A stretch of 64,000 bases of DNA, taken from assembly GCA_945902075.1 (NCBI GenBank), contig CAMDMA010000015.1, positions 1-64,000 of the forward strand, written 5' to 3'. Below are positions 43,356-56,588 of this stretch, one piece after another (position 1 is the stretch's first letter; each line of letters opens with the position of its first letter). The stretch comes from Candidatus Kuenenia stuttgartensis. GTDB taxonomy: Bacteria > Planctomycetota > Phycisphaerae > Phycisphaerales > SM1A02. The notes beneath the pieces are model-generated. The model was given only the letters and a program-made list of their open reading frames with translations, made no database searches and was not told the DNA's origin. Both the position numbers and the translations under genes were made by a program.

Positions 43356-44440
43356 ACTCGTCAATCGACCGAGTGCATTTTCGCGAGCGGATTGAAGCGA
43401 GAGCACATGAGCTTGGCTTTGCACTGGTTGGGGTGGCGCGGGCTGAAGCAAGCTCGCGCACAGATGCGCTGCGACGCTGGCTTGATGATGGCAAGCACGG
43501 AGAGATGGGATGGCTGGCAGATTGCGCTGCGACACGCGCGGATGTGCGGTTGATGCTCAAAAATGCGCGGAGCGTGATTGCAGTTGGTGACCGCTATCAC
43601 GACGGACGGCCTGACCGCGTCATCGCAGGTGCCGCGCGTGGCCGCATCGCGAGGTACGCGCGTGGAAAGGATTACCACGACATCATTCGTGATCGACTTC
43701 GCAAACTAGGCCGTTTCGTGCGCGAGATTGCGCCCGGTACCTCAACGCGGCTCACTGGCGATATTCATCCCATTCTTGAACGCGAACAGGCCGCGCGCGC
43801 CCTCGTCGGAGCCATTGGCAAACACACGCTCCTGATTCGTCCCGCGCTCGGCAGTTACTTTCTGCTTGGCGAAATCGTGACCGACGCCGATATCGCCGCG
43901 AGTGACGAAGCGCCGCGCACCGAAGCGAGCGACCTCTGCCGCAGTTGCACGCGTTGCATCGATGCCTGTCCGACGAAAGCCATCACTCCCTACTCAGTCG
44001 ACGCGACCCGTTGCACCGCGTACCTCACTATTGAACATCGGAGCGCGATCGCCGCTGAATTTTTTGGCTCTACGGGTGACTGGTGGTTCGGCTGCGATAT
44101 CTGCCAGGAAGTGTGTCCTCACGCACAGTCGACGCGTGCATCTCGGCGCGTCGGCATCAATCCGCAGTACGCACCACGCCTCGAAAGCGTGGATTTACTC
44201 GAGGTTCTCGGTTGGAACGAAGCGGATCGCGCGCGCCTCGTCGTTTCTAGTGCACTCAAGCGCGCAACGCTTGCGATGATGAAGCGCAACGCTCTACTCG
44301 CCTTGGCGTCCATCGCGCGAACAGACGCAGCGCTCGCGTTGCGTGTGCGGGCAAGGTGCGCGACGATTGCAGAGAGTGTCGAAGAAGACGAGATTGTTCG
44401 CCTTGCGGCGGCAAACTGTGCACGCACACTTTCATCGTGA
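43352..44440 (+). CDS. queG: Epoxyqueuosine reductase QueG
   Basis: Last step of queuosine synthesis: reduces epoxyqueuosine to queuosine on tRNA using cobalamin and two [4Fe-4S] clusters. 362 residues. N-terminal domain DxxP-type GDIHPILEREQAARAL and IGKHTLLIRPALGSYFLLGEI; ferredoxin motifs CRSCTRCIDACPTKAI and CDICQEVCP; a C-terminal HEAT-like helical repeat. The segment before IGKHT (ARALVGA) differs from the usual ARAGLGW. Start overlaps the preceding stop by 4 bases. The last 9 bases overlap hpnE on the other strand. No other que gene is near. Confidence 0.93.
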   Translation: MNSSIDRVHFRERIEARAHELGFALVGVARAEASSRTDALRRWLDDGKHGEMGWLADCAATRADVRLMLKNARSVIAVGDRYHDGRPDRVIAGAARGRIARYARGKDYHDIIRDRLRKLGRFVREIAPGTSTRLTGDIHPILEREQAARALVGAIGKHTLLIRPALGSYFLLGEIVTDADIAASDEAPRTEASDLCRSCTRCIDACPTKAITPYSVDATRCTAYLTIEHRSAIAAEFFGSTGDWWFGCDICQEVCPHAQSTRASRRVGINPQYAPRLESVDLLEVLGWNEADRARLVVSSALKRATLAMMKRNALLALASIARTDAALALRVRARCATIAESVEEDEIVRLAAANCARTLSS

Positions 44441-45847
44441 CAACGCCCGCGCAAAGCGCACAAGCACCGCAGGAGGAAGATCGGCGACCACGCCCACGCC
44501 GCCCGTCATCGCGGCCGCTGCGGCGTAACCGGATCGCGCAGCGCCCTCCATCGTCGACGGCCATCCGTTGTCCGTCCACTCACCGGCGAGAAACAAGTTT
44601 GCAACTCCACCGCGAAGATCGCCTGCCTCTGCGCGCGCACGCGGGCGAATCGCGTCAACACCGGGCACACTCGCAAAGGTCGCACGCTTCTCAAGGACTG
44701 GTCGGGACCACAAAATATCTTCCCGCCGAAAATCTGGGATCGCCCACGAAACATCCGCTGAGACACGTGCGATCGTCTCAGCTTCCGTGAGTCCGATCCA
44801 ATCATCTGCTGCCGAAACAACTGCCTCAAGACGCTGCGGAAAACCTGCATTTTCGTGCATTTCGTGCGCGAACAACCAGTGGGTCGCTCGGCCCGGGAGC
44901 GCGAGGTTTGCTGTTTGCATCACGCGGCGGCGTACGGCAATGTGCACGCCAAGGATCGGTGAGAACGTGAATGAATCAATCCCCATGAGTCTGCGGTCTT
45001 GCGCGCGCAACGCATCCGAACACAGTCGTGTGAGGCGATCAGGCGGAACGGCGGAGATACACGCTTGCGCCGTCACAACTCCATCATCACAAACAACGCC
45101 GGTGATACGAGTTCCGTCGAAGGCGAGTGCTTTCGCGCTGGTACGAAGCCGAATCTCACCGCCAGCCTTCGCAATGATTCTCGCAGCAGCTTCGTAGAGC
45201 CGCGCAAGGGGAACGCGCGCGGTCCCAACCACGCCCGCAAACCGATGCGCAAGCATGCCTTCGTCGAACACTTTCAACGCATGCGTCGCCTCACAACGTG
45301 CACTTGAAAGATTGCAGGCAGAGAGGACAACGGGATCCCAGAACAACTCGATCACGCGCGCGGGCTGGCGGCACGAGCGAAGAAACGCAGCGAAGTCCCG
45401 GCCACTCCAGCGCACACGTCCTTTGGGGCCCATGCGAAGAATCGCGTGAAAGGCGCGCGCAATTGCAACTTTTTCGGCAAGTGAGAAGAGTTTCATCCGT
45501 GCGAAACTTGCAGCGTAGTGAAGCGGTGCAGGCAAGCGACCCACCGTAAGCGCGTCAACCGCACCGCCTCCGCGCGCAAAGAAAAGTGTCTCGTGCCAAT
45601 CAAACGCATCGAGCACGCCGAGGCGCTCATACAAGTCAAGGATATTTGTACAACAGCCCATCACAACATGCTGGCAGTTGTCGAGTTCAAGCCCACTGCG
45701 CACATCATCAAAACTCGTCGCGCGACCACCGAGCTTGGTGCGCGTCTCAATCAACACCGGACGCCAACCCGACTCAGCCGCACGTACCGCGGCCGCGATT
45801 CCAGCGACCCCACCGCCGACGATCGCCACCGTGCGCACCACACTCAC
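44432..45847 (-). CDS. hpnE: Hydroxysqualene dehydroxylase HpnE (FAD-dependent)
   Basis: Converts hydroxysqualene to squalene, last of the HpnC-HpnD-HpnE steps. 471 residues, amine-oxidase/desaturase fold: FAD-binding VAIVGGGVAGIAAAVRAAE, ETRTKLGGRATSF, DNCQHVVMGCC, and the C-terminal FAD motif NLFLAGEWTDNGWPSTMEGA. The GTG start at 45847 overlaps the hpnD stop (GTGA) and has GGGGGGAG just upstream. Order hpnC-hpnD-hpnE is the usual operon, which supports the function over general carotenoid desaturase. Converges with queG (9-base overlap). Confidence 0.9.
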   Translation of the reverse strand: MSVVRTVAIVGGGVAGIAAAVRAAESGWRPVLIETRTKLGGRATSFDDVRSGLELDNCQHVVMGCCTNILDLYERLGVLDAFDWHETLFFARGGGAVDALTVGRLPAPLHYAASFARMKLFSLAEKVAIARAFHAILRMGPKGRVRWSGRDFAAFLRSCRQPARVIELFWDPVVLSACNLSSARCEATHALKVFDEGMLAHRFAGVVGTARVPLARLYEAAARIIAKAGGEIRLRTSAKALAFDGTRITGVVCDDGVVTAQACISAVPPDRLTRLCSDALRAQDRRLMGIDSFTFSPILGVHIAVRRRVMQTANLALPGRATHWLFAHEMHENAGFPQRLEAVVSAADDWIGLTEAETIARVSADVSWAIPDFRREDILWSRPVLEKRATFASVPGVDAIRPRARAEAGDLRGGVANLFLAGEWTDNGWPSTMEGAARSGYAAAAAMTGGVGVVADLPPAVLVRFARALSR

Positions 45848-46791
45848 GCGCTCCCCCCGGAAAACGCGCGTCCGCCGAGGAACCCAAAGCGTGCACGCAG
45901 CGCTATCCAAGATTTCGCAAGTGCCGAGAGTCGCGCTCTCTGCGTCATCGCACGAGCAGGACGACGAGCGATTTCACGCAGAATCCCGCTGTAAATCGCG
46001 CTCATCGCCGCGATGGTCGCATGCGAATCACGCGCCACCAACCCATCAAGTGGCGCACTTTCGGCGAAGATGCGTTGCGCCCGCGCACACTGCACGTGCA
46101 TGAATCGCGCGCAAGCTTCCGGATTCTCCCACCGCACCAAGCTCGCAACATCAAGACCCGCGTTGACCAACTCGTCCGCCGGGAGGTAACAGCGTCCGCG
46201 TGCGAGATCCTCGGAGATATCGCGCAAAATATTGGTCAGTTGGAAGGCTACGCCGCGCAGCGTGGCCAATCTGCGCGCGCGGATGACCGTCTCTTCGTCG
46301 AGCTCTGTCGAAGCGGCCACATCATCACGAAGTCCCCAGACATCGAGACAAATCCGCCCCACGGTAGAAGCCACACGGTCGCAGTAGAGCGTGACTTCAT
46401 CAAAATCTGCGTACACGCGCGGCGCGAGATCCATGCGTTGGCCCTCGATCGCGGCGAGAAAGTCGTTTGGTTGCATCGCGTAAGAACGGACAACACTTTG
46501 TAGCGCCGACATCACCGCTGTTTCGCGCGGATCTCCACCCCGAACTGGCTCAACACTCCACAACGCCCGAGTGCGCGTCTCAAATGCATCGAGCGCTGCG
46601 CGCCGCATCTCAAGCGCAACGCCGGGCTCGTCCGCGATATCGTCAGCGATCCGCATCCACGCATACACCGCGTACAGCGCGCTTCGCTTGGGCTCGGGGA
46701 GCAAGCGGAGTCCGTAATAAAAGTTCTTCGCTTCTTTTCGCGTGATTTCAGCGCATGCCGCAAACGCGGGATCCATTGACGACGCGGTCAT
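45844..46791 (-). CDS. hpnD: Presqualene diphosphate synthase HpnD
   Basis: Condenses two farnesyl diphosphates to presqualene diphosphate. 315 residues of the squalene/phytoene synthase family. The two aspartate-rich Mg sites are present: YAWMRIADDIADEP and QLTNILRDISEDLARGRCYLP. HpnD is named by its place between HpnC and HpnE; the enzyme alone could be taken for a phytoene synthase. Its ATG overlaps the hpnC stop by 4 bases and its stop overlaps hpnE by 4 bases. Confidence 0.9.
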   Translation of the reverse strand: MTASSMDPAFAACAEITRKEAKNFYYGLRLLPEPKRSALYAVYAWMRIADDIADEPGVALEMRRAALDAFETRTRALWSVEPVRGGDPRETAVMSALQSVVRSYAMQPNDFLAAIEGQRMDLAPRVYADFDEVTLYCDRVASTVGRICLDVWGLRDDVAASTELDEETVIRARRLATLRGVAFQLTNILRDISEDLARGRCYLPADELVNAGLDVASLVRWENPEACARFMHVQCARAQRIFAESAPLDGLVARDSHATIAAMSAIYSGILREIARRPARAMTQRARLSALAKSWIALRARFGFLGGRAFSGGSA

Positions 46792-47861
46792 GGCTCGCGG
46801 GACTCCGAAAATGCCGTGCCGACTTCGCCAAGTTCGACCCGCGGACGACGTGGAAACGCGTCCGCATCTCGATCCGGCTCAGGATCCACGATCCACTGCG
46901 ACGGACCGGGAAGCACAGGCAAACCAAATCCGAAACGCGCGGCGAGCGCAGCGCGCAGAACGAGGCCGAGCTTTCGCGGCTTCGATAATTTTGGTCGCAC
47001 GAGAACTGTCTCGCAATTCCAGCGTTCGATGTTGCGGAGCACGCTGCGCCCACCTGCGGCGAACAGCCAGATCAGGGGTTGCGATCGCTGCGACAGTGAA
47101 GCGATCAGTGGCTCACCCTTTTCAAACTCGTCCCAGGTCCGCGCGACAAGCCTTCGGACGAGCCTCCGAGATTCGCCGAAGAAGCGTTCATCGCACGACC
47201 ACCCGCGATCAATCGTTTGTGCGAGGCGATTCTCGAAATCCTCAATGTCGTGCATGTCGCGCGGAACATAGATGCGCCTGCGCTCAATCCAGTCGCGCTT
47301 GATGTCCTGCCAGTGATTGGTCAGTTGAAGGGCGGTGCACACGGCATCACTCGCAGCAAGTTGCGTATCGTCACACCGCTCGCCAAGGATCGCGAGCACG
47401 ATGCGTCCCACGGGATTCGCGCTCAATCGGCAATACTCAATCACCTCGGACCAAGTTTCGTACCGCGTTTTTACCTGATCAAGTTCAAATGCTGCAATCA
47501 GATCGGCAAACGGCTCAAGCCGAAGCCCACGCGCCGCGATCGTCGCTCGCAGCGCGACGAAGACCGGGTGCCGCGCCTCACCGGCCGCGAGGCGCTCAAA
47601 CTCGCTCCGCCACCAAGCGAGCAACTCGGTCGCACGCTCGGGGGATCCCGCCTCATCACCGATATCGTCGGCCCAGCGGGCAAACGCGTACACAGCGGCA
47701 AAGTCGTCACGTCGATCGATCGGCACAAGCGGACTGAGAACCGAGAAGTTTTCGTAGTGACCCAGTGCAAGTTTGCGGCAATAGGTCCGAGCGGCCTCAA
47801 GCGAGACGACTTCCGTCTGCGTAGGCCCAAACCGGGAGATGTCAGAAAGCAAGACAGACAC
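46788..47861 (-). CDS. hpnC: Hydroxysqualene synthase HpnC
   Basis: Converts presqualene diphosphate to hydroxysqualene. 357 residues of the squalene/phytoene synthase family: YCRKLALGHYENFSV at the N-terminus is typical of HpnC; Mg sites FARWADDIGDEA and QLTNHWQDIKRDWIERRRIYVP. A ~60-residue C-terminal extension is Arg/Pro-rich. First gene of the operon; 62 bases from the divergent ispH gene, so isoprenoid genes face away from each other across a short promoter region. No squalene-hopene cyclase is in the window, so end product (hopanoid, sterol or carotenoid) is open. Confidence 0.9.
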   Translation of the reverse strand: MSVLLSDISRFGPTQTEVVSLEAARTYCRKLALGHYENFSVLSPLVPIDRRDDFAAVYAFARWADDIGDEAGSPERATELLAWWRSEFERLAAGEARHPVFVALRATIAARGLRLEPFADLIAAFELDQVKTRYETWSEVIEYCRLSANPVGRIVLAILGERCDDTQLAASDAVCTALQLTNHWQDIKRDWIERRRIYVPRDMHDIEDFENRLAQTIDRGWSCDERFFGESRRLVRRLVARTWDEFEKGEPLIASLSQRSQPLIWLFAAGGRSVLRNIERWNCETVLVRPKLSKPRKLGLVLRAALAARFGFGLPVLPGPSQWIVDPEPDRDADAFPRRPRVELGEVGTAFSESREP

Positions 47862-47923
47862 GCGGCGCTCGTTGCGAAAGGTACCGCGCGAAAGGCCTCC
47901 GGTGGGCGTATCATCCCGATCCC

Positions 47924-49003
47924 ATGAAGATCCTCCTCGCGAACCCCCGCGGCTTCTGCGCCGGCGTCTACATGGCGATCGACGTCGTTGACCAGTTGCT
48001 TGACATCTGCGGCGCTGACAAGGTCTTCGTCTACCACGAGATCGTGCACAACCGTCATGTGGTCGACCGTTTCCGCAACCGAGGCGTCACGTTTGTTGAG
48101 TCGATTGCCGAAGTTCCTCGCGATTCGATCGTTGTGTTTTCCGCGCATGGGGTGAGCCCCGCTGTTCGCAGCGAGGCGCGGGCGAAAAACCTCACCGCGA
48201 TTGATGCGACCTGTCCTCTCGTGATGAAAGTGCATGCCGAAGCGATCCGCTTTGCGAAGCGTGGCTGGCAGATTCTTCTTGTTGGCCACAGAAATCACCA
48301 GGAAGTTGTGGGAACGCTCGGCGAAGCACCGGAAGCGATCCAAGTTGTCGAGAAGCCCGAAGACATTCCGAATCTGAAGATTATTGACGCGGAGAAATTG
48401 ATCTATCTCACGCAGACGACCCTCTCGCTTGACGACGCGAACATCATCATCAAAGCCTTGAAGAAGGCATTTCCGAAGATGCACGAACCTCCGTCGAGCG
48501 ACATCTGCTATGCGACCACCAATCGGCAAACCGCTGTGCGTGCCATTGCACCTGAGGCAGAGTTTGTCCTCGTCGTCGGAAGCAAAAACAGCTCAAACTC
48601 TGTTCGTCTCACAGAGATCTCTGAGAATGACGGCACTCCGTCAAGACTCATCGACGACAAGAGCGAGATCGATCCTGATTGGTTTGTCGGCGTGAATACG
48701 GTGCTCGTCACTTCTGGAGCCAGTGTGCCGGAAGATCTCGTCCACGGCGTACTTGAATGGCTCATCGATCGCTTTGGCGGCGAGGTAGAGCAGCGTGATG
48801 TGTACGATGAACGTGTCGAATTCGGTCTTCCCGGAACGCTGCGTGAACTGATGCGAAACCGCGGTGTCGACCCTGATTCGCGTCGCATTCGGATCGATCG
48901 TGAGGCCGACACCACCGCTTGGCTCGAGCGCAAGCACATTCCAAACCGCACAGTGCAAGTCTCCATTCGTGAGACTGAGGGCGGACACCAACCCCATGAC
49001 TGA
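47924..49003 (+). CDS. ispH: 4-hydroxy-3-methylbut-2-enyl diphosphate reductase IspH
   Basis: Last step of the MEP pathway, giving IPP and DMAPP; [4Fe-4S] enzyme. 359 residues, slightly long. Cluster cysteines: PRGFCAGVYMAI, DATCPLVMKVH and DICYATTNRQ. Conserved EIVHNRHVV, FSAHGVSP and VVGSKNSSNSVRL (substrate pocket). The C-terminus (EVEQRDVYDERVEFGLP onward) has extra residues beyond the usual ~310. ATGACTGA at 48996 makes its last 8 bases overlap the start of rlmN. Confidence 0.95.
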   Translation: MKILLANPRGFCAGVYMAIDVVDQLLDICGADKVFVYHEIVHNRHVVDRFRNRGVTFVESIAEVPRDSIVVFSAHGVSPAVRSEARAKNLTAIDATCPLVMKVHAEAIRFAKRGWQILLVGHRNHQEVVGTLGEAPEAIQVVEKPEDIPNLKIIDAEKLIYLTQTTLSLDDANIIIKALKKAFPKMHEPPSSDICYATTNRQTAVRAIAPEAEFVLVVGSKNSSNSVRLTEISENDGTPSRLIDDKSEIDPDWFVGVNTVLVTSGASVPEDLVHGVLEWLIDRFGGEVEQRDVYDERVEFGLPGTLRELMRNRGVDPDSRRIRIDREADTTAWLERKHIPNRTVQVSIRETEGGHQPHD

Positions 49004-50156
49004 ACCTCACGACGCGCTCGACGCCGACGCCAGCATCGACGCCAGCATCGACGTTGGAAGGCGCGGCACCGGCCGAACCTCACTTTTCGAATTCGACCTT
49101 GCATCACTCGTGGGTGAGATCGAGGCGATGGGCCTCCCGCGCCGCACCGCGCCGCAACTTCTCAAGTGGATCTACGAGAAGGGCGTGGTCGACTTCGAAC
49201 ACATGACCGATCTCTCGAAGAATGCGCGCGCTCAGATCGCAGCGCGATTTTCGACGCTTCAGGGCGCGGTCGTCCGTCACCAGATCGCAACAGACGACAC
49301 ACAAAAGTTACTCATCGAATGGGGCGAGATTGAGGCTCCACCCGCGGAAAGCGCGCTTCGAATCACAGGGGCAATGCGCAGCGAGAAGCAAACTGAAACA
49401 GTGATGATTCCAACCGAAGACCGCAAGACTGCATGCGTCTCGAGCCAGGTTGGCTGTCCCGTCGGCTGCAAGTTTTGTGCCTCGGGTATTGGCGGACTCG
49501 ACGGAAATCTCACGGCTGGCCGAATCGTTGAGCAAGTTTGGCGCATGTCGAGACTCGATGGCGTGAACCGAATCTCGAACGTTGTCTTCATGGGGATGGG
49601 TGAACCGCTCGCGAATTTCAATAATGTCACGCAGGCAATTCGTATCCTCAACGCCGCGTGGGGAATGGGTATCGGCGCTCGGAAGATCACTGTCTCGACC
49701 GTGGGGTTACCTGCGGCGATCCGCAAACTCTGCACGTTTGACATTCCCGTCACGCTCGCGCTTTCGCTGCACGCGCCCTTTGATGAACTCCGTCGGAAGA
49801 TCATTCCATGGGCCGAGTATTCGACGATCGCTGAACTCCTCGATGCCTGCCAAGAATGGTTTCGGAAGACTGGCCGCGAGATTACGCTCGAATACATCTT
49901 GCTCGGTGGCGTGAATGACCGTGCCGAACACGCAGAAGAACTTGCCCGGCTTGCGCGTTCGATGCGTGCGAATGTGAATCTCATTCGCTACAACGAGGTT
50001 CGAGGCATGCCTTTCCTTCGACCGACCAACGACGATGTTCATGTGTTCCAGGAAATTCTTCGCGAACGCGCGGTGAATTCGCACATCCGCGCGAGTCGTG
50101 GTCGCGACATCGCTGCGGCCTGCGGACAACTCAGGCACGAAGCACGCACTCTATAA
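48996..50156 (+). CDS. rlmN: 23S rRNA (adenine-2503-C2) / tRNA methyltransferase RlmN
   Basis: Radical-SAM methyltransferase. 386 residues. Cluster motif CPVGCKFC, the methyl-carrying Cys in ACVSSQVGC, NVVFMGMGEPL, TVSTVGL and the resolving Cys in the C-terminal GRDIAAACGQL are all present. The N-terminal 25 residues are a repeat DASIDASID encoded by an imperfect 15-bp DNA repeat (49021-49055). The start overlaps the ispH stop, so the two are coupled, as in some other phyla. Its last 6 bases overlap the oxidoreductase-like gene on the other strand. Confidence 0.95.
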   Translation: MTEPHDALDADASIDASIDVGRRGTGRTSLFEFDLASLVGEIEAMGLPRRTAPQLLKWIYEKGVVDFEHMTDLSKNARAQIAARFSTLQGAVVRHQIATDDTQKLLIEWGEIEAPPAESALRITGAMRSEKQTETVMIPTEDRKTACVSSQVGCPVGCKFCASGIGGLDGNLTAGRIVEQVWRMSRLDGVNRISNVVFMGMGEPLANFNNVTQAIRILNAAWGMGIGARKITVSTVGLPAAIRKLCTFDIPVTLALSLHAPFDELRRKIIPWAEYSTIAELLDACQEWFRKTGREITLEYILLGGVNDRAEHAEELARLARSMRANVNLIRYNEVRGMPFLRPTNDDVHVFQEILRERAVNSHIRASRGRDIAAACGQLRHEARTL

Positions 50157-53100
50157 ACCTTCCACACTGGCGCGAAGTTCCGCGGCGGTGAGCGAGCGAA
50201 GTCCACCGTCAGTCGCCAGCATCGCGAAGCGGCGCATGCACATTGACCACTGCGCGGAGTCGCGATCAAAACCCGATGCTGCTCGCTCCGCAAGTGAGAT
50301 CGCGTAGGCGCGAACCTCGCGGGCCCGCAGATCGCCGCGGATTGCCCACGGAACAAGCGGTCGTGTAAGGCGCACGATTTCCGCAGGCCAGTCGCTTGAT
50401 CGGAAGTCGAGCCGGAATCGACGCGTTCCAATGAGTAACTCGAAGCGACTGAGGAACCGTCGCTCGAGCGTATCACCGTGCGATGCGCGCACGCCAAGCC
50501 GCTCGCGAATACGCCGGCGCTGTTCAAGACTCGTCGACATCGAAAGAACATAAAGAATGTCGCGCACGAGTATCGCGTCAGCGAGCGGCTCGACAGCGAC
50601 AAGCGCGAGTTCCCCTGATGGATCGGCTCGAAGCAGCGCGGCAATCAGCGACTCGTACTGCCGCATCATGCGCGTCCCGCCCCAAACAATCGCACGATGA
50701 AGTGCAGTCACCACGGCGCGCGTCGCGCGATCCACATCATCACCATCACCGAGTCGTGCAAACGACGCGAGCATGCCCGATGCGCTTAGCGCGTAGCGTT
50801 CGGCACGTCGCCTTCCGCCGAAACGCTCCCGCACGAGTTCGAGCGCAAGTCGTCGCACGAGACGCTCGACAGGCTCGCGCTCTTCAACTGTGCGCCGGAC
50901 AACTGCACCAGCTTCAAGTCGGCGACCAAAAGTGAATGCCTCAAAACTCCGGCCAAAACCGGCGATTTCCGCCCTTCGTACCGCGCCTTCGATCGCTTCT
51001 TGTGAAACGGGAATCAGTCCACGCTGAAAGGCAACTCCGAGCATCGCCACATCAAGAAGTCGCTCACTGAGCAGATTGGTTCGGCAAAGCGATGCGTAAT
51101 CATCGACCGACGAATAGGTCGCCTGTGCGCAACGCTCCACAACACCTTCAAGCATCGCACATGCTTCGAGGCGCGCGTCATCGAATTGATCTTCGAGCGG
51201 CCCGTCGTTCGCGACCACCGATGTACGCGCTGGACCGGCCACGCGAAGCGCAGGATCAGGCCCGAGTGCGCGAAGTGTTTCGACTGCGTCGGCACCGAGC
51301 ACGAGATCAGCCTCGCCGTAAGGAATCATCGCGGTGCGCGGCGCACGCGTATCTCCTGGACGCGCGCGAACCCAGAGCACCTGCGCCCACGCCCGACGAC
51401 CGCGGCCGCAGGGGTCGTCGGAAGAGAGGACTTCGACGCGATATCCCATCGCGCGCCCGGCATCCGAGAGGACGCGCGCAACAACGCCAGGAACCAAACC
51501 GCGACAGCCTGCAAGATGAACGCGATACGTCCCACTCTCCGCGTGGATCGGGCGCGGCGGCATGATTCCGGCGGAGCCACGCGAGTAGGCCGTCATCGGC
51601 GGCTTCGTGCGCACGACCTCAACTTGCTCCGAGAGCGCGATCGCCCGAAACTGCATGTTTTCCACGCGCATTCCGAGTTCCTCGTTTGTGAAACTTCCCT
51701 GAATGGGCGTAGACCCCTGCTCTTCAGCGTCGTCGAGCAAACCCGCGAGTGCAGGTGGCCGGAGTTCGCAGGCGATATCTGCACTCCAAACCAATCGCTG
51801 CTGTGGTAGGTAGCCGAGCCGATCGCGTTCCACAAATGTTCGCTCAATTGACTCGGCGTCAAGTCGCGCCGGAGGGCCGTCCGACAGAACGAGGATCGTG
51901 ACACCGTCGCCAAGTATCTCGGAGAGAATCCGCTCACGCACCGCGATTCGATCATTCAAATCGACGCGTACTACACGCGTGCGAGCGGCAGCGCCTGCAG
52001 GAATCGCGGCATCAGCGAGTCGAGCGAGATCGACCTCACCCGCGCCTCCAACATCTACGGCGATGATGAGCCTCCGAAACGGATCACGCGCCGCCTGACG
52101 CACGACCTCGGGCCCTTCGAGCAGAAACCGCTCGCGTGGATAGATCTCAGCAACAACGAAACTCTGCGCGTCGATGCGCGGTGGAAGCGCGTCAATCACG
52201 AGAATTCTTGGCCGAGGCTCCGATTCGGGCAGTTCAGGACGCGCGCGAAGTTCCTGATCGATCTCGACAAGCATCTGTCGCGCGAGGCGCATCGCTGCAT
52301 CGACGCCGATGTCTTCACCCCGCGACGGCAACTGTATGGACTCCAGCGCTTCATCGGCGCTGAGTAGTTTCGTGGCGACGGAGAGCGACGGGCGTACCGC
52401 GTGAAGGAGGTGCACGATGCGGCGCACGAGTACCGAAGGGCGCGTGGCGTCATTGAGCCGGAGGAATTCCGCCGCCTTGCCCGGCGCGGTGGGAAGTTCG
52501 TGGAATGAAATCGTTGGAACGCGCGCACTACGGCGGCGCATTTGATCGGCGGCGGCGAGGACGACACCAGCGACCGATCCTGGTCGCGGCTCAAGCACAA
52601 CAGCGTGTTGGACGCGATCGAGAAATCGTTGCAGCGCCGACTCGTCGATCGGTGAAATCAATCCGAGTCGAAGGACGGGAACGCGCCCAGTCAAACCCAA
52701 CTCGCCGAGCACATCGACGAGCGCACGCTCACATGCACCGATTGCGATAAAACCGACGACCTCGCGCTCGCCCGGACTCGGTAGGCTCACCGCAACATTT
52801 AACTCAAGCCGACGCGCGACGCGCAAGAGGTCACCAACATCTGCAACACCAAGGCCTGCGCGCGATTTCCGCTGAAGAATAAGTTCATCGACGCTGGTGA
52901 CCACGCGGTTGGGCCGCGCCTGCAACGTTTCGCTCGCGGCAAGGAGCAGTCGGTGCACGACAATCGCGACCGGAACGACACCCGCGCGCGAAAGCCGCAG
53001 CGACTGCTCGACGGCATCGCGCAGCGACGAAAGATCTGTTGGCTCGACAATCGGTAATCCCGCATCAATCGCGAGTCGTCGCGGACAGAGCATCGGTGCG

Positions 53101-53564
53101 CCGTCGGGATCATCCTCGAGAATCAGCGCGACCCCGTGCCCCGGACTCATGAAAGACGCGCGTGCGCCACGCAATGCGGCGACCGCGGCCACAAGATCCG
53201 ATGCGGGTACGAGTGCGATCGCACTCCTTCCGCCGCGCATCGCGCCGAGCGCGAGCGAGACCGCGCGCGCGCCGTCACCGCCGAGATGAATTTCAGTTTG
53301 GTGACGCGCAAGCAGCCGCTGCGCTGGCTCCGATTGCGCGATGCGCGACAGTCCGGCGAAGCGTGTCACCATCGGCGCTGCGATGACCTCGACCGGAACC
53401 TGCGATTCGAGCGCGCCCTTCACAATCGCGTCGCACGCATCCATCAACACGAGCCCATCTGCCGCATGGAGCGGGGTCAGGAAAGTGGGCTGGTTTGCGA
53501 CGGGCACGACGCAATTGTAAAGCCGCGCACGACCCACGGCGGCCAACCAATCGCGCGCTACCAT
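50151..53564 (-). CDS. Degenerate indolepyruvate:ferredoxin-oxidoreductase-like fusion protein
   Basis: 1137 residues. The first ~190 residues follow the pyrimidine-type domain of IOR/2-oxoacid oxidoreductases (ADGLVLMDACDAIVKGALES, AVSLALGAMRGGRSAIALVP, GHGVALILEDDPDGAP), then the transketolase-C-like domain (VGFIAIGACERALVDVL, VPVLRLGLISPIDESAL, VVLEPRPGSVAG). The TPP-binding domain with its GDG...N motif and all clustered Fe-S cysteines are missing. In their place are ~300 residues of unknown sequence. From about 750 there is a beta-subunit-like part (CRGLVPGVVARVLSDAGRAMGYRV, MIPYGEADLVLGADAVETLRAL) and a tail like that of fused proteobacterial IORs (AMLGVAFQRGLIPVSQEAIEGA). Start ATG 53564; active as a standard oxidoreductase is unlikely. 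Confidence 0.72.
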   Translation of the reverse strand: MVARDWLAAVGRARLYNCVVPVANQPTFLTPLHAADGLVLMDACDAIVKGALESQVPVEVIAAPMVTRFAGLSRIAQSEPAQRLLARHQTEIHLGGDGARAVSLALGAMRGGRSAIALVPASDLVAAVAALRGARASFMSPGHGVALILEDDPDGAPMLCPRRLAIDAGLPIVEPTDLSSLRDAVEQSLRLSRAGVVPVAIVVHRLLLAASETLQARPNRVVTSVDELILQRKSRAGLGVADVGDLLRVARRLELNVAVSLPSPGEREVVGFIAIGACERALVDVLGELGLTGRVPVLRLGLISPIDESALQRFLDRVQHAVVLEPRPGSVAGVVLAAADQMRRRSARVPTISFHELPTAPGKAAEFLRLNDATRPSVLVRRIVHLLHAVRPSLSVATKLLSADEALESIQLPSRGEDIGVDAAMRLARQMLVEIDQELRARPELPESEPRPRILVIDALPPRIDAQSFVVAEIYPRERFLLEGPEVVRQAARDPFRRLIIAVDVGGAGEVDLARLADAAIPAGAAARTRVVRVDLNDRIAVRERILSEILGDGVTILVLSDGPPARLDAESIERTFVERDRLGYLPQQRLVWSADIACELRPPALAGLLDDAEEQGSTPIQGSFTNEELGMRVENMQFRAIALSEQVEVVRTKPPMTAYSRGSAGIMPPRPIHAESGTYRVHLAGCRGLVPGVVARVLSDAGRAMGYRVEVLSSDDPCGRGRRAWAQVLWVRARPGDTRAPRTAMIPYGEADLVLGADAVETLRALGPDPALRVAGPARTSVVANDGPLEDQFDDARLEACAMLEGVVERCAQATYSSVDDYASLCRTNLLSERLLDVAMLGVAFQRGLIPVSQEAIEGAVRRAEIAGFGRSFEAFTFGRRLEAGAVVRRTVEEREPVERLVRRLALELVRERFGGRRRAERYALSASGMLASFARLGDGDDVDRATRAVVTALHRAIVWGGTRMMRQYESLIAALLRADPSGELALVAVEPLADAILVRDILYVLSMSTSLEQRRRIRERLGVRASHGDTLERRFLSRFELLIGTRRFRLDFRSSDWPAEIVRLTRPLVPWAIRGDLRAREVRAYAISLAERAASGFDRDSAQWSMCMRRFAMLATDGGLRSLTAAELRASVEGL

Positions 53565-53570
53565 CGCCGC

Positions 53571-54452
53571 GTGCCGCGCTTTCGACTCCTTGTCACCGAC
53601 CTCGACGGAACGCTCCTCAACCGCAAGGGACAGGTCAGCGAGAGCAACCTCTCGGCGATCCGCCGACTGCAGGATTCTGGCGTGGAAGTCATTCCCGCCA
53701 CCGGCCGCGCCCTGCGCGAGTGCGGACACGTGCTCGACTTCATCAATCACGCTGGCCACGCGATCACCGCCGGGGGCGCGCTGGTCCATGATGCGCGCGA
53801 TGGTTCGGTCGTTATCCGCCGAGGTCTCTCGTCCGAACTCGCGCGCGCAATCAGCGAAATTCTCGGAGAGCACGGTCACCTCGCGCAGCTTCTCCAGGAC
53901 CACACGCAGACCGGTTTCGACTACGTGATGGTCGGCGACCATCCCCTCGATCCGGCGACCGAATGGTGGTTTAACCATCTCCCGGTGACCTATCGGCGGG
54001 TCATGACGATCGCCGAACACACCGACGACGGCCACACGATGCGGGCCGGTACGGTCGCCCACGGCGCGCTGCTTGAGCCGATCGTCGAGCGCCTTCGACA
54101 GAAGCTTGGGGATCAGATTTTTGTACAGCATTGGTCCGCCCTCACCGCTGAGGCCGCGACCGGCTCCCCCACGCACCTCCTCGAGGCGTTTGGTGCTGAT
54201 GTCAACAAGTGGACAGCGATTGAAGCGCTCTGCGCCGACTATGGGATCGACCCCGCGGAAGTTGCGACGGTGGGTGACGGCCTCAACGACCTCGAGATGA
54301 TCCGAAGCGCAGGCCTTGGAATTGCCATGGAAAACGCAGATCCCCGCATCGCGGCCGTCGCCGGTGCCCGTGCTGGCCACCACGACCGGGACGGCTTTGC
54401 CACCGCAGCGGAGCTTGTTCTCGCGGCCAACCGTTCCGCCGCCAACCACTGA
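53571..54452 (+). CDS. HAD-family phosphatase (Cof type)
   Basis: 293 residues. Motif I LLVTDLDGTLLN, motif II and VIPATGRALRECG, and the C-terminal GDGLNDLEMIRSAGLGIAMENA (motif III/IV) followed by GFATAAE mark the Cof/YbjI subgroup, acting on sugar phosphates or similar small phosphates in the cytosol. The GTG at 53571 gives a start only 6 bases from the divergent oxidoreductase-like gene. No ATG lies nearby; substrate unknown. Confidence 0.9.
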   Translation: MPRFRLLVTDLDGTLLNRKGQVSESNLSAIRRLQDSGVEVIPATGRALRECGHVLDFINHAGHAITAGGALVHDARDGSVVIRRGLSSELARAISEILGEHGHLAQLLQDHTQTGFDYVMVGDHPLDPATEWWFNHLPVTYRRVMTIAEHTDDGHTMRAGTVAHGALLEPIVERLRQKLGDQIFVQHWSALTAEAATGSPTHLLEAFGADVNKWTAIEALCADYGIDPAEVATVGDGLNDLEMIRSAGLGIAMENADPRIAAVAGARAGHHDRDGFATAAELVLAANRSAANH

Positions 54453-54550
54453 GCCCCAATTCCGCGATTCTTTGGGCAACGCACCGTCTGTCGATTTCAC
54501 CGACCTTTGCTTTGGCACAGCGACGAAAGAACCGATAGATTGTGCGACCT

Positions 54551-55378
54551 ATGGATCCAAAGGCAACCGACAAGCGCAGACTGCAGCAAGTGCAGACCCA
54601 AGACCTCACCGAGAGCCGTCTCAATGACGACTTTGTGTACTGGCTCAAGAAGAATGGGTCGAACTACTTGCTCGTCGTGCTTCTCGCTGCGTGCGCGGCA
54701 CTTGGCTACAACTTCTGGCAGCGAAAGAATGTCGAGAAGAGTTCAGTCGCCTGGAGCGAGCTCGCGCAAGCGACGCTTCCGGAAGCGCTTGAGCAACTTG
54801 CGAAGGACCACGCGGAGGTGCCGCAGATGGCAATGATCGCGCTCTTGAGCGCGGCCGATCGACGACTCGCACAAATCCGCTCTGGAGAACTCACGCCAAA
54901 GCTCGGCGATACACCCGCCGTCATGCTTGATGACGCGTCGCGGAAGATCGCCCAAGACGCAGCCGACGAGGACTATGTGAAGAGTGCTGAACTTGCCATT
55001 CAGGTTGCAGGCGGCAAGCGTGAGAATGCCATCGCCATCGTGCTGCCAACCCTCTTCGGTCGCGCGGCAATTTGCGAGAGCCGCGGAGATTTCACTGGCG
55101 CCAAGAACTTCCTCGACGAAGCTGCCAAGCTTGCGGGCGACCGCTGGCCCGACTTCGCGAAGCTCGCTGAATGGCGCGCTGCTGAGACACTCACGCTTGC
55201 GACGCCGGTGCAAATGCCAAGCGCCGCGCAACTTCCGGCGAAGCCCACCCCAGCCACACCGGTTGCGCCCACGGGAGATGACCTCTTCCAGCAGTTGATC
55301 CAAGAGCAGACGACAACCACTCCTGCGAGCGGTGACGCCCCTGCGAGCACATCGCCTGCGCCTGGGAACGGCGGATAA
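54551..55378 (+). CDS. Membrane-anchored YfgM-like tetratricopeptide protein
   Basis: 275 residues. One membrane segment (about 36-54, SNYLLVVLLAACAALGYNFW) after a cytosolic start, then helical repeats resembling YfgM/BamD-type TPR (AWSELAQATLPEALEQLAKD, IVLPTLFGRAAICESRGD) and a Pro/Thr-rich tail. Relatives act at the Sec translocon as chaperone-like proteins, but that is only a loose match. Its stop is 34 bases before the RluD start. ATG 54551 is used rather than the GTG at 54542. Confidence 0.68.
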   Translation: MDPKATDKRRLQQVQTQDLTESRLNDDFVYWLKKNGSNYLLVVLLAACAALGYNFWQRKNVEKSSVAWSELAQATLPEALEQLAKDHAEVPQMAMIALLSAADRRLAQIRSGELTPKLGDTPAVMLDDASRKIAQDAADEDYVKSAELAIQVAGGKRENAIAIVLPTLFGRAAICESRGDFTGAKNFLDEAAKLAGDRWPDFAKLAEWRAAETLTLATPVQMPSAAQLPAKPTPATPVAPTGDDLFQQLIQEQTTTTPASGDAPASTSPAPGNGG

Positions 55379-55412
55379 ACCCCCGCTCGTCGCTGCGGCG
55401 TACCCAAATTCC

Positions 55413-56588
55413 GTGGCCGAGTCACCCAACGAACGCATCGAACGCACCGCCGCACTCCTCGGCGCGGGTGGCGCTGTAGACCGCGATGCACTGTTTGCGA
55501 TCTACGAGGAAAACGCGACCAAGGACGATGAGTCGCCGGTCACGGTGGAGTTTGAGCTGCTCAAGGATCTTGAGAAGCGCCTCGACCGCTACATGGTCGA
55601 CCGGGTGCCGTTCCTCTCGCGCACGCAAATCCAGCGGCTGATCGATGAAGAGGCCATCACGGTGAACGGGCGCGTGCCCAAGAGTTCGACCAAACTTCGC
55701 AAAGGGGACCGCATCGTCGCGACGCTTCCGCCGCCGCCGTCGGGAGCGATTTCGCCTGAAGACATTCCGCTCGATGTGATTTACGAAGACGACGCCATCA
55801 TCGTTGTCAACAAGCCCGCGGGACTCATTGTTCATCCGGCACGAAGCCACAAATCGGGCACGCTTGTGAATGCGCTTGCGTGGCGGTTCAAAAACATTTC
55901 GGGAGGCGAGCTGTCGAAGGTCGGCGAAGAGTTTGCGCGACCAGGCATTGTCCATCGACTCGACAAGTTCACCTCGGGCGCGATCGTGAGTGCAAAGAAC
56001 GACACCGCGCACTGGCGACTCGGCAAGCAGTTTGAAATGCGGCGCACAGACAAACGCTACCTCGCGCTTGTCCACGGCAGCCCAGAGCGCGATGTCGAAA
56101 CGATCGACCTACCGCTCGGAAAACATCCGACCATCAAAGAGAAGTACGCGGTTCGCCACGATGAAACCGGTAAGGCCTCACTCACGATCGCGCGTGTGCG
56201 TGAGCGATATCTCGGCCCCGGCGGGGCGAGATATGCGCTGGTTGAGCTCGAACTCAAGACCGGCCGAACCCACCAAATCCGCGTGCACCTTTCCTACCTC
56301 GGCCATCCGATTGTCGGTGATGACATGTACGGCGGTAAACACTCGACGGAGCGCGACCTCGGAGGCGAAAGCGACGCGATGCTTCTTGCGCGGCAGGCCT
56401 TGCACGCGACCACGCTCGGGATCCGTCACCCAATGACTGAAAAACCGATGTCGTTTACCGCACCGATTGCCGCAGACCTCCGGCGCGCGGTCGAACTGCT
56501 ACGCACTTCCACCCTAGCCGCCGGCGCGCAACCAACCGTTGTCGCCCCAGGGACGACAATCGATCTCGCAGCTGCTGGAATTGGGTGA
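55413..56588 (+). CDS. rluD: Ribosomal large-subunit pseudouridine synthase, RluD/RluA family
   Basis: Makes pseudouridines in 23S rRNA. 391 residues. S4 RNA-binding domain at about 50-110 (RLDRYMVDRVPFLSRTQIQRL, VNGRVPKSSTKLRKGDRI). Catalytic domain: HRLDKFTSGAIV with the catalytic Asp, DDAIIVVNKPAGLIVHPA, RYLALVHG and TGRTHQIRVHLSYLGHPIVGD. GTG 55413 is chosen because it lies past the previous stop; the frame is open further. The C-terminal ~30 residues are not part of the fold. RluD versus RluC substrate not decided by sequence alone. Confidence 0.92.
   Translation: MAESPNERIERTAALLGAGGAVDRDALFAIYEENATKDDESPVTVEFELLKDLEKRLDRYMVDRVPFLSRTQIQRLIDEEAITVNGRVPKSSTKLRKGDRIVATLPPPPSGAISPEDIPLDVIYEDDAIIVVNKPAGLIVHPARSHKSGTLVNALAWRFKNISGGELSKVGEEFARPGIVHRLDKFTSGAIVSAKNDTAHWRLGKQFEMRRTDKRYLALVHGSPERDVETIDLPLGKHPTIKEKYAVRHDETGKASLTIARVRERYLGPGGARYALVELELKTGRTHQIRVHLSYLGHPIVGDDMYGGKHSTERDLGGESDAMLLARQALHATTLGIRHPMTEKPMSFTAPIAADLRRAVELLRTSTLAAGAQPTVVAPGTTIDLAAAGIG

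Follow-up and report, generated by a model that had tools for sequence, protein, structure and literature searches.

Indolepyruvate:ferredoxin oxidoreductases (IORs) are enzymes that oxidize keto acids with two cofactors, thiamin diphosphate (ThDP) and Fe–S. ThDP-family pseudoenzymes, for example the transketolase-like TKTL1, have a ThDP fold whose cofactor site is lost or damaged. For the POR/IOR superfamily we know of no described case in which both the ThDP and the Fe–S sites were lost and the gene was nonetheless retained in the core genome, and a literature search for cofactor-stripped POR/IOR core genes, its coverage excluding most subscription papers, found none. In the 64,000-nucleotide stretch of DNA analyzed here (the window), one gene encodes a protein that, at a probability we put near 0.7, descends over its whole length from a fused IOR and has become a retained pseudoenzyme. 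Its cofactor site would be gone from a ThDP fold as in TKTL1, but it belongs to an unrelated subfamily, its family has lost the Fe–S ligands as well, and a whole bacterial family carries only the stripped form.

The gene occupies 50151..53564 on the minus strand, as do all its features listed below, and reading-frame inspection finds 1137 codons and a stop open from 53564 to 50151, undamaged as the earlier note had described it. The first ATG lies 6 bases from the point where a divergent HAD hydrolase probably starts with GTG, so the gene's own start is not certain and may be somewhat downstream, perhaps by up to about 30 codons; conservation sets in near residue 31, and residues 1–27 have a pLDDT below 50 in the AlphaFold model. 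At the other end, the last 6 bases of the gene are shared with the end of the rlmN frame.

Searches with the protein itself returned no Pfam match at E up to 10 and, by phmmer, no match among PDB sequences. The NCBIfam fused-IOR model PRK13030 matches residues 669–957 (E 1.1e-18) and the IOR alpha model residues 268–331 (E 3.6e-4). The protein reaches 66 bits on the fused-IOR model, against a curated cut-off of 816, a shortfall that on its own says little, because canonical relatives within the order do not reach the cut-off either (best 469 bits). When the profile of the homologues from the window's family was compared with that of canonical fused IORs of the same order, the two aligned end to end over 1066 columns (E 2e-113), and separate segments matched the canonical IOR in canonical order by hhalign. 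These are the pyr domain (residues 35–240, 52845..53462; E 2.6e-18), the transketolase-C-like domain with the family motif RRLELN...LPSPGERE (residues 241–395, 52380..52844; E 2e-26), a middle slice discussed below, the POR gamma-like domain (residues 669–885, 50910..51560; E 9.6e-32), which keeps most conserved columns and has the new conserved residues H683, R688, G722, R723, W726 and E751, and a C-terminal DUF6537-like helical domain (residues 915–1115, 50220..50822; E 3.7e-27 for slice 930–1137), where a canonical relative has PF20169. That relative (L070) carries Pfam POR, DUF6537, TPP_enzyme_C and, weakly, POR_N. Most of the 68 positions common to the window's family and canonical IOR fall in the gamma and C-terminal parts.

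The predicted structure points the same way. The AlphaFold model (pLDDT 86.5, pTM 0.84) has pyruvate:ferredoxin oxidoreductase (PFOR) as its top Foldseek match (E 1.6e-11), and a structural aligner places both PFOR and OGOR on the pyr, transketolase-C and gamma parts at Z 23–27, with Z 27 over residues 36–388. Compared with PFOR (PDB 1b0p, 2c3y, 6cin, 7plm), these parts share the fold at Z 22.7–26.6 over some 490–500 residues, whereas the domain order differs, identity is 11–13%, and the window protein is without the ThDP or Fe–S sites. Compared with fused IOR (PRK13030/PRK13029), it is alike in domain order, overall length and the gamma and DUF6537 parts: pyr, transketolase-C, ThDP-binding, Fe–S, gamma and DUF6537 segments follow one another in one chain, the Fe–S segment being counted as a remnant only and placed by its flanks and C599. 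As judged from the profiles and the model, the 1137-codon frame is thus derived over its full length from a fused IOR. The earlier note had held that the IOR domain order can be followed, and the PRK13030 match and the 1066-column alignment agree; the segment-by-segment profile comparison that it proposed ties the pyr, transketolase-C, 440–600, gamma and C-terminal slices to IOR.

The middle of the chain departs from that earlier description, according to which the TPP-binding domain is absent and about 300 unrelated residues sit in the gap. Taken by itself, slice 440–600 aligns with the C-terminal half of the ThDP domain of canonical IOR (E 5.8e-10), and the shorter slice 520–600 aligns with that domain too (E 4.7e-8), while slices 400–520 and 590–660 alone give no significant hhalign alignment to canonical IOR and the stretches 400–445 and 600–645 are not individually alignable to it. 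The middle part predicted separately (pLDDT 75) has ThDP enzymes as all 50 of the 50 PDB matches listed for it (Z 9.2–10.7), with borderline Foldseek E-values of 1e-3. Given the profile match and the exclusively ThDP-type structural matches, the ThDP-binding domain (residues 400–600, 51765..52367) is, on alignment and predicted fold, present, yet shortened and stripped of its cofactor site. The profile and structure checks suggested for this segment therefore do place a ThDP domain there, though not a complete one, and the supposedly unrelated residues resolve into an eroded ThDP domain at about 445–600 followed by the former Fe–S region. The latter (residues 599–665, 51570..51770) is a putative remnant, assigned over residues 590–660 by position, C599 and flanks, and a motif resembling EQVEVVRTRPP is conserved in it.

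What separates the protein most clearly from a working IOR is the loss of its cofactor sites, in every f1, f4 and g60 sequence compared (families are coded f1–f9, with f1 the window's family and g60 a genus of f6). Canonical L070 has GYPGSP, SNEALA, CPGCPHRD, HGDTGCY, GMGLGG, MGDGTFFHSG, ENQTTAMTGHQ, CEYCLEC and WCVDDGACARIHACP, and this whole set, WCVDDGACARIHACP included, is absent from the window protein and its family save for one cluster Cys. In the pyr domain, the YPGSP ThDP loop is lost along with the catalytic Glu: E76 of L070 aligns with G98 (53271..53273), the family has Gly, Ala, Ser or another residue in that column, and no f1 sequence has Glu, although L032 has one a residue earlier. 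In the eroded ThDP domain the CPGC, HGDTGCY, MGLGG and GDG..N elements are gone and the loop after the N is deleted. YPRERFLLEG (residues 475–484, 52113..52142) stands where the canonical sequence has MGDGTFFHSG, V505 is found in place of the GDG...N motif's ending, none of 24 f1 sequences has the motif, and N539 is lost family-wide. Among the eight Cys of the two [4Fe–4S] clusters seven are gone, and C599, the first Cys of CxxCxxC, is the sole survivor. The absence of GDG...N and the probable absence of the catalytic Glu, both remarked on before, hold across the family; the claim that the CxxCxxC clusters are absent holds for seven Cys and fails for the one kept as C599. Because the ThDP activator Glu, the ThDP/Mg motif and the [4Fe–4S] ligands are lost, IOR chemistry is, from the residues left, impossible by any known mechanism in this family.

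The gene has nevertheless been kept. Of the family's 151 genomes, 142 carry it, as do 96 of the 98 good ones and 44 of 45 genera, nearly always once per genome and with its frame open; several of the additional matches are fragments at the ends of contigs. For the closest pairs dN/dS is 0.04–0.10 (dS up to 1.7), all domains being constrained and the ratio somewhat higher in the ThDP remnant only. Clear descent, lost catalytic residues and purifying selection thus coincide, as expected of a pseudoenzyme, and two views of the earlier note stand: near-universal retention under such selection argues against a decaying pseudogene, and family-wide loss of both cofactor sites makes the protein catalytically dead as an IOR. 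The window's genome has no match to POR gamma or POR_N (PF01558, PF01855), and the f1 genomes of the order sample have no canonical IOR. Automatic annotation of such genes as "indolepyruvate ferredoxin oxidoreductase" would credit genomes with a ferredoxin-linked pathway that they lack. The surrounding block (window 44432–56588) is syntenic over the family and comprises hpnE, squalene-synthase-like hpnC/hpnD, ispH, rlmN, the window gene, the HAD hydrolase, in many members an APH-like kinase, a TPR protein and an RluD-like synthase. This locus is constant in f1, no conserved operon partner emerging beyond the vertical synteny, and since the gene is the only one on its strand there, flanked by convergent and divergent neighbors, no partner can be named.

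The earlier note also proposed to follow the distribution across Planctomycetota; within the order, sister families hold stripped, canonical, eroding or no IOR. In an order sample of 151 genomes (f1 46, f2 45, f3 1, f4 6, f5 9, f6 44), all 46 f1 and all 6 f4 genomes have the stripped form, the 9 of f5 a canonical one, and f2 and f3 no fused IOR, while f6 divides into 21 counted intact, 5 stripped (genus g60) and 18 without; motifs were read in 21 of the f5/f6 sequences and in one f7 sequence. Because plasmid-borne outgroup IORs and family f7 of the same class have the canonical motifs, the ancestral state was a canonical IOR. Among the IORs counted as intact, L078 (genome G206) has GDG changed to GQG and L082 (G155) to GDA, each keeping the catalytic Glu and all cluster Cys, and these two are candidate living intermediates of cofactor loss; L077 shows milder damage, an altered pyr loop, with Glu and cluster Cys kept. 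The order preserves a series (intact, eroding, stripped, stripped beside a replacement, replaced) that makes directly testable how an enzyme becomes a pseudoenzyme and what keeps it. Whether the stripped forms of f1, f4 and g60 go back to a single stripped ancestor, and not to two or more erosions, is a question on which we lean somewhat to the latter. They form one clade (SH-aLRT 98) in a tree built without the ThDP and Fe–S columns, but branches are long, a topology that puts g60 next to the canonical IORs scores 8.9 log-likelihood units better and survives the AU test (p 0.646), and the g60 gene sits at the same locus as the canonical f6 IOR.

Another ThDP enzyme able to make acyl groups probably released the IOR from catalytic duty, after which its cofactor sites could be lost. 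The best evidence for such a release comes from the f6 locus, in a sister family and not in the window itself. The canonical f6 arrangement is thymidylate kinase, methyltransferase, ketoacyl synthase and a divergent IOR. In g71 and g57 (and g66 by coordinates), a fusion of E1alpha, E1beta, lipoyl and beta-ketoacyl-ACP synthase III (KASIII) domains of about 1170 residues adjoins the ketoacyl synthase and there is no IOR, whereas in g60 a stripped IOR and then the fusion occupy the place beside the ketoacyl synthase. Twelve f6 genomes have the fusion: seven without IOR, four of g60, and one (G155, g50) with an IOR counted intact but eroding. From gene order the IOR appears to have been replaced in place in f6, with substrates only surmised. 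The fusion (L074:9288-12809 (+); also L152, L153, L155 and L158) might tie 2-oxoacid decarboxylation directly to the start of fatty-acid synthesis, and a literature search for an E1–lipoyl–KASIII fusion found none. The ketoacyl synthase of the f6 locus has no match in the window's family at the threshold used, so the f6 replacement need not apply there. In f1 a PDH-type E1 is present, and its tie to IOR loss is correlative only. PDH-type E1alpha (TIGR03181, best E 1e-115 or better) occurs in 46/46 f1, 44/45 f2, 1/1 f3, 6/6 f4, 0/9 f5 and 0/44 f6 genomes, that is, in none of 30 intact-IOR against 52 of 57 stripped-IOR genomes, the remaining five being g60, four of them with the fusion. With aceE in f5, PFOR in many f6 genomes, and in f1 no aceE match and PFOR in 2/46, pyruvate oxidation differs between the same families; E1alpha as a specific IOR replacement in the window's family was for this reason demoted to a correlation, which pyruvate oxidation and shared ancestry may confound and which rests on few independent events.

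How the present function is to be imagined depends on which explanation of retention one prefers. That the gene is a decaying relic heading for loss would fit its faster evolution than canonical IOR (longer branches), its drifted, Lys-poor composition, the losses in f2 and in the f6 genera g57, g66 and g71, and a split frame in G165; intact frames over 44 of 45 genera, dN/dS of 0.04–0.10 and constraint on every domain already largely refute it, and we give it very little credence. Equally improbable is complementation in trans, in which separate subunits would bring the ThDP and Fe–S functions to the window protein: split IOR/POR systems are established, but the pyr-domain Glu and ThDP loops are lost on this chain too, and neither a POR_N nor a POR gamma family match turns up in the genome.

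A less remote, though still unlikely, alternative is a neofunctionalized enzyme whose gamma/DUF6537 or transketolase-C part catalyzes a cofactor-independent reaction at a site made of the new conserved Arg, His and Glu. Besides the strong purifying selection, it draws on 45 positions at least 90% conserved in the window's family and not in canonical IOR, 36 of which differ from the canonical majority residue, 15 of these 36 being Arg, and on the share of Arg, which is 26% in conserved columns and 12% over all residues. A new active site could just as well be built from the newly conserved residues, but no known catalytic motif, Pfam match or, in the window's family, conserved operon partner accompanies them, and drift in composition (Lys about 1%) may account for part of the Arg enrichment. 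Returning to the retained pseudoenzyme, its job is probably different from that of an IOR, perhaps non-enzymatic, because almost every family genome keeps the gene intact. Scaffolding or ligand binding seems to us more economical than new chemistry, and the protein might then be, more tentatively, a cofactor-free folded binding or scaffold protein acting via its gamma and DUF6537 parts. A broader proposal, that in a whole planctomycete family a redox enzyme with several cofactors became a core protein that has none and carries a new activity or serves an essential structural purpose, sister lineages still holding the steps (GQG/GDA sites, stripped beside replacer, replaced), is one we consider rather doubtful.

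Two minor observations concern the sequences themselves. In the f4 genome G165 the stripped IOR (L081) is seemingly split into two frames. The window protein is low in Tyr and Asn and high in Arg and Ala. Avoidance of pupylation as a cause of its Lys scarcity was ruled out for the lineage, no Pup ligase being found in the f1 genomes tested; the protein has 5 Lys in 1137 residues, with a family mean of 0.9% and 0.6% in f4, beside 1.9–4.0% in neighboring genes and 4.4–4.5% in the canonical f5/f6 IORs.
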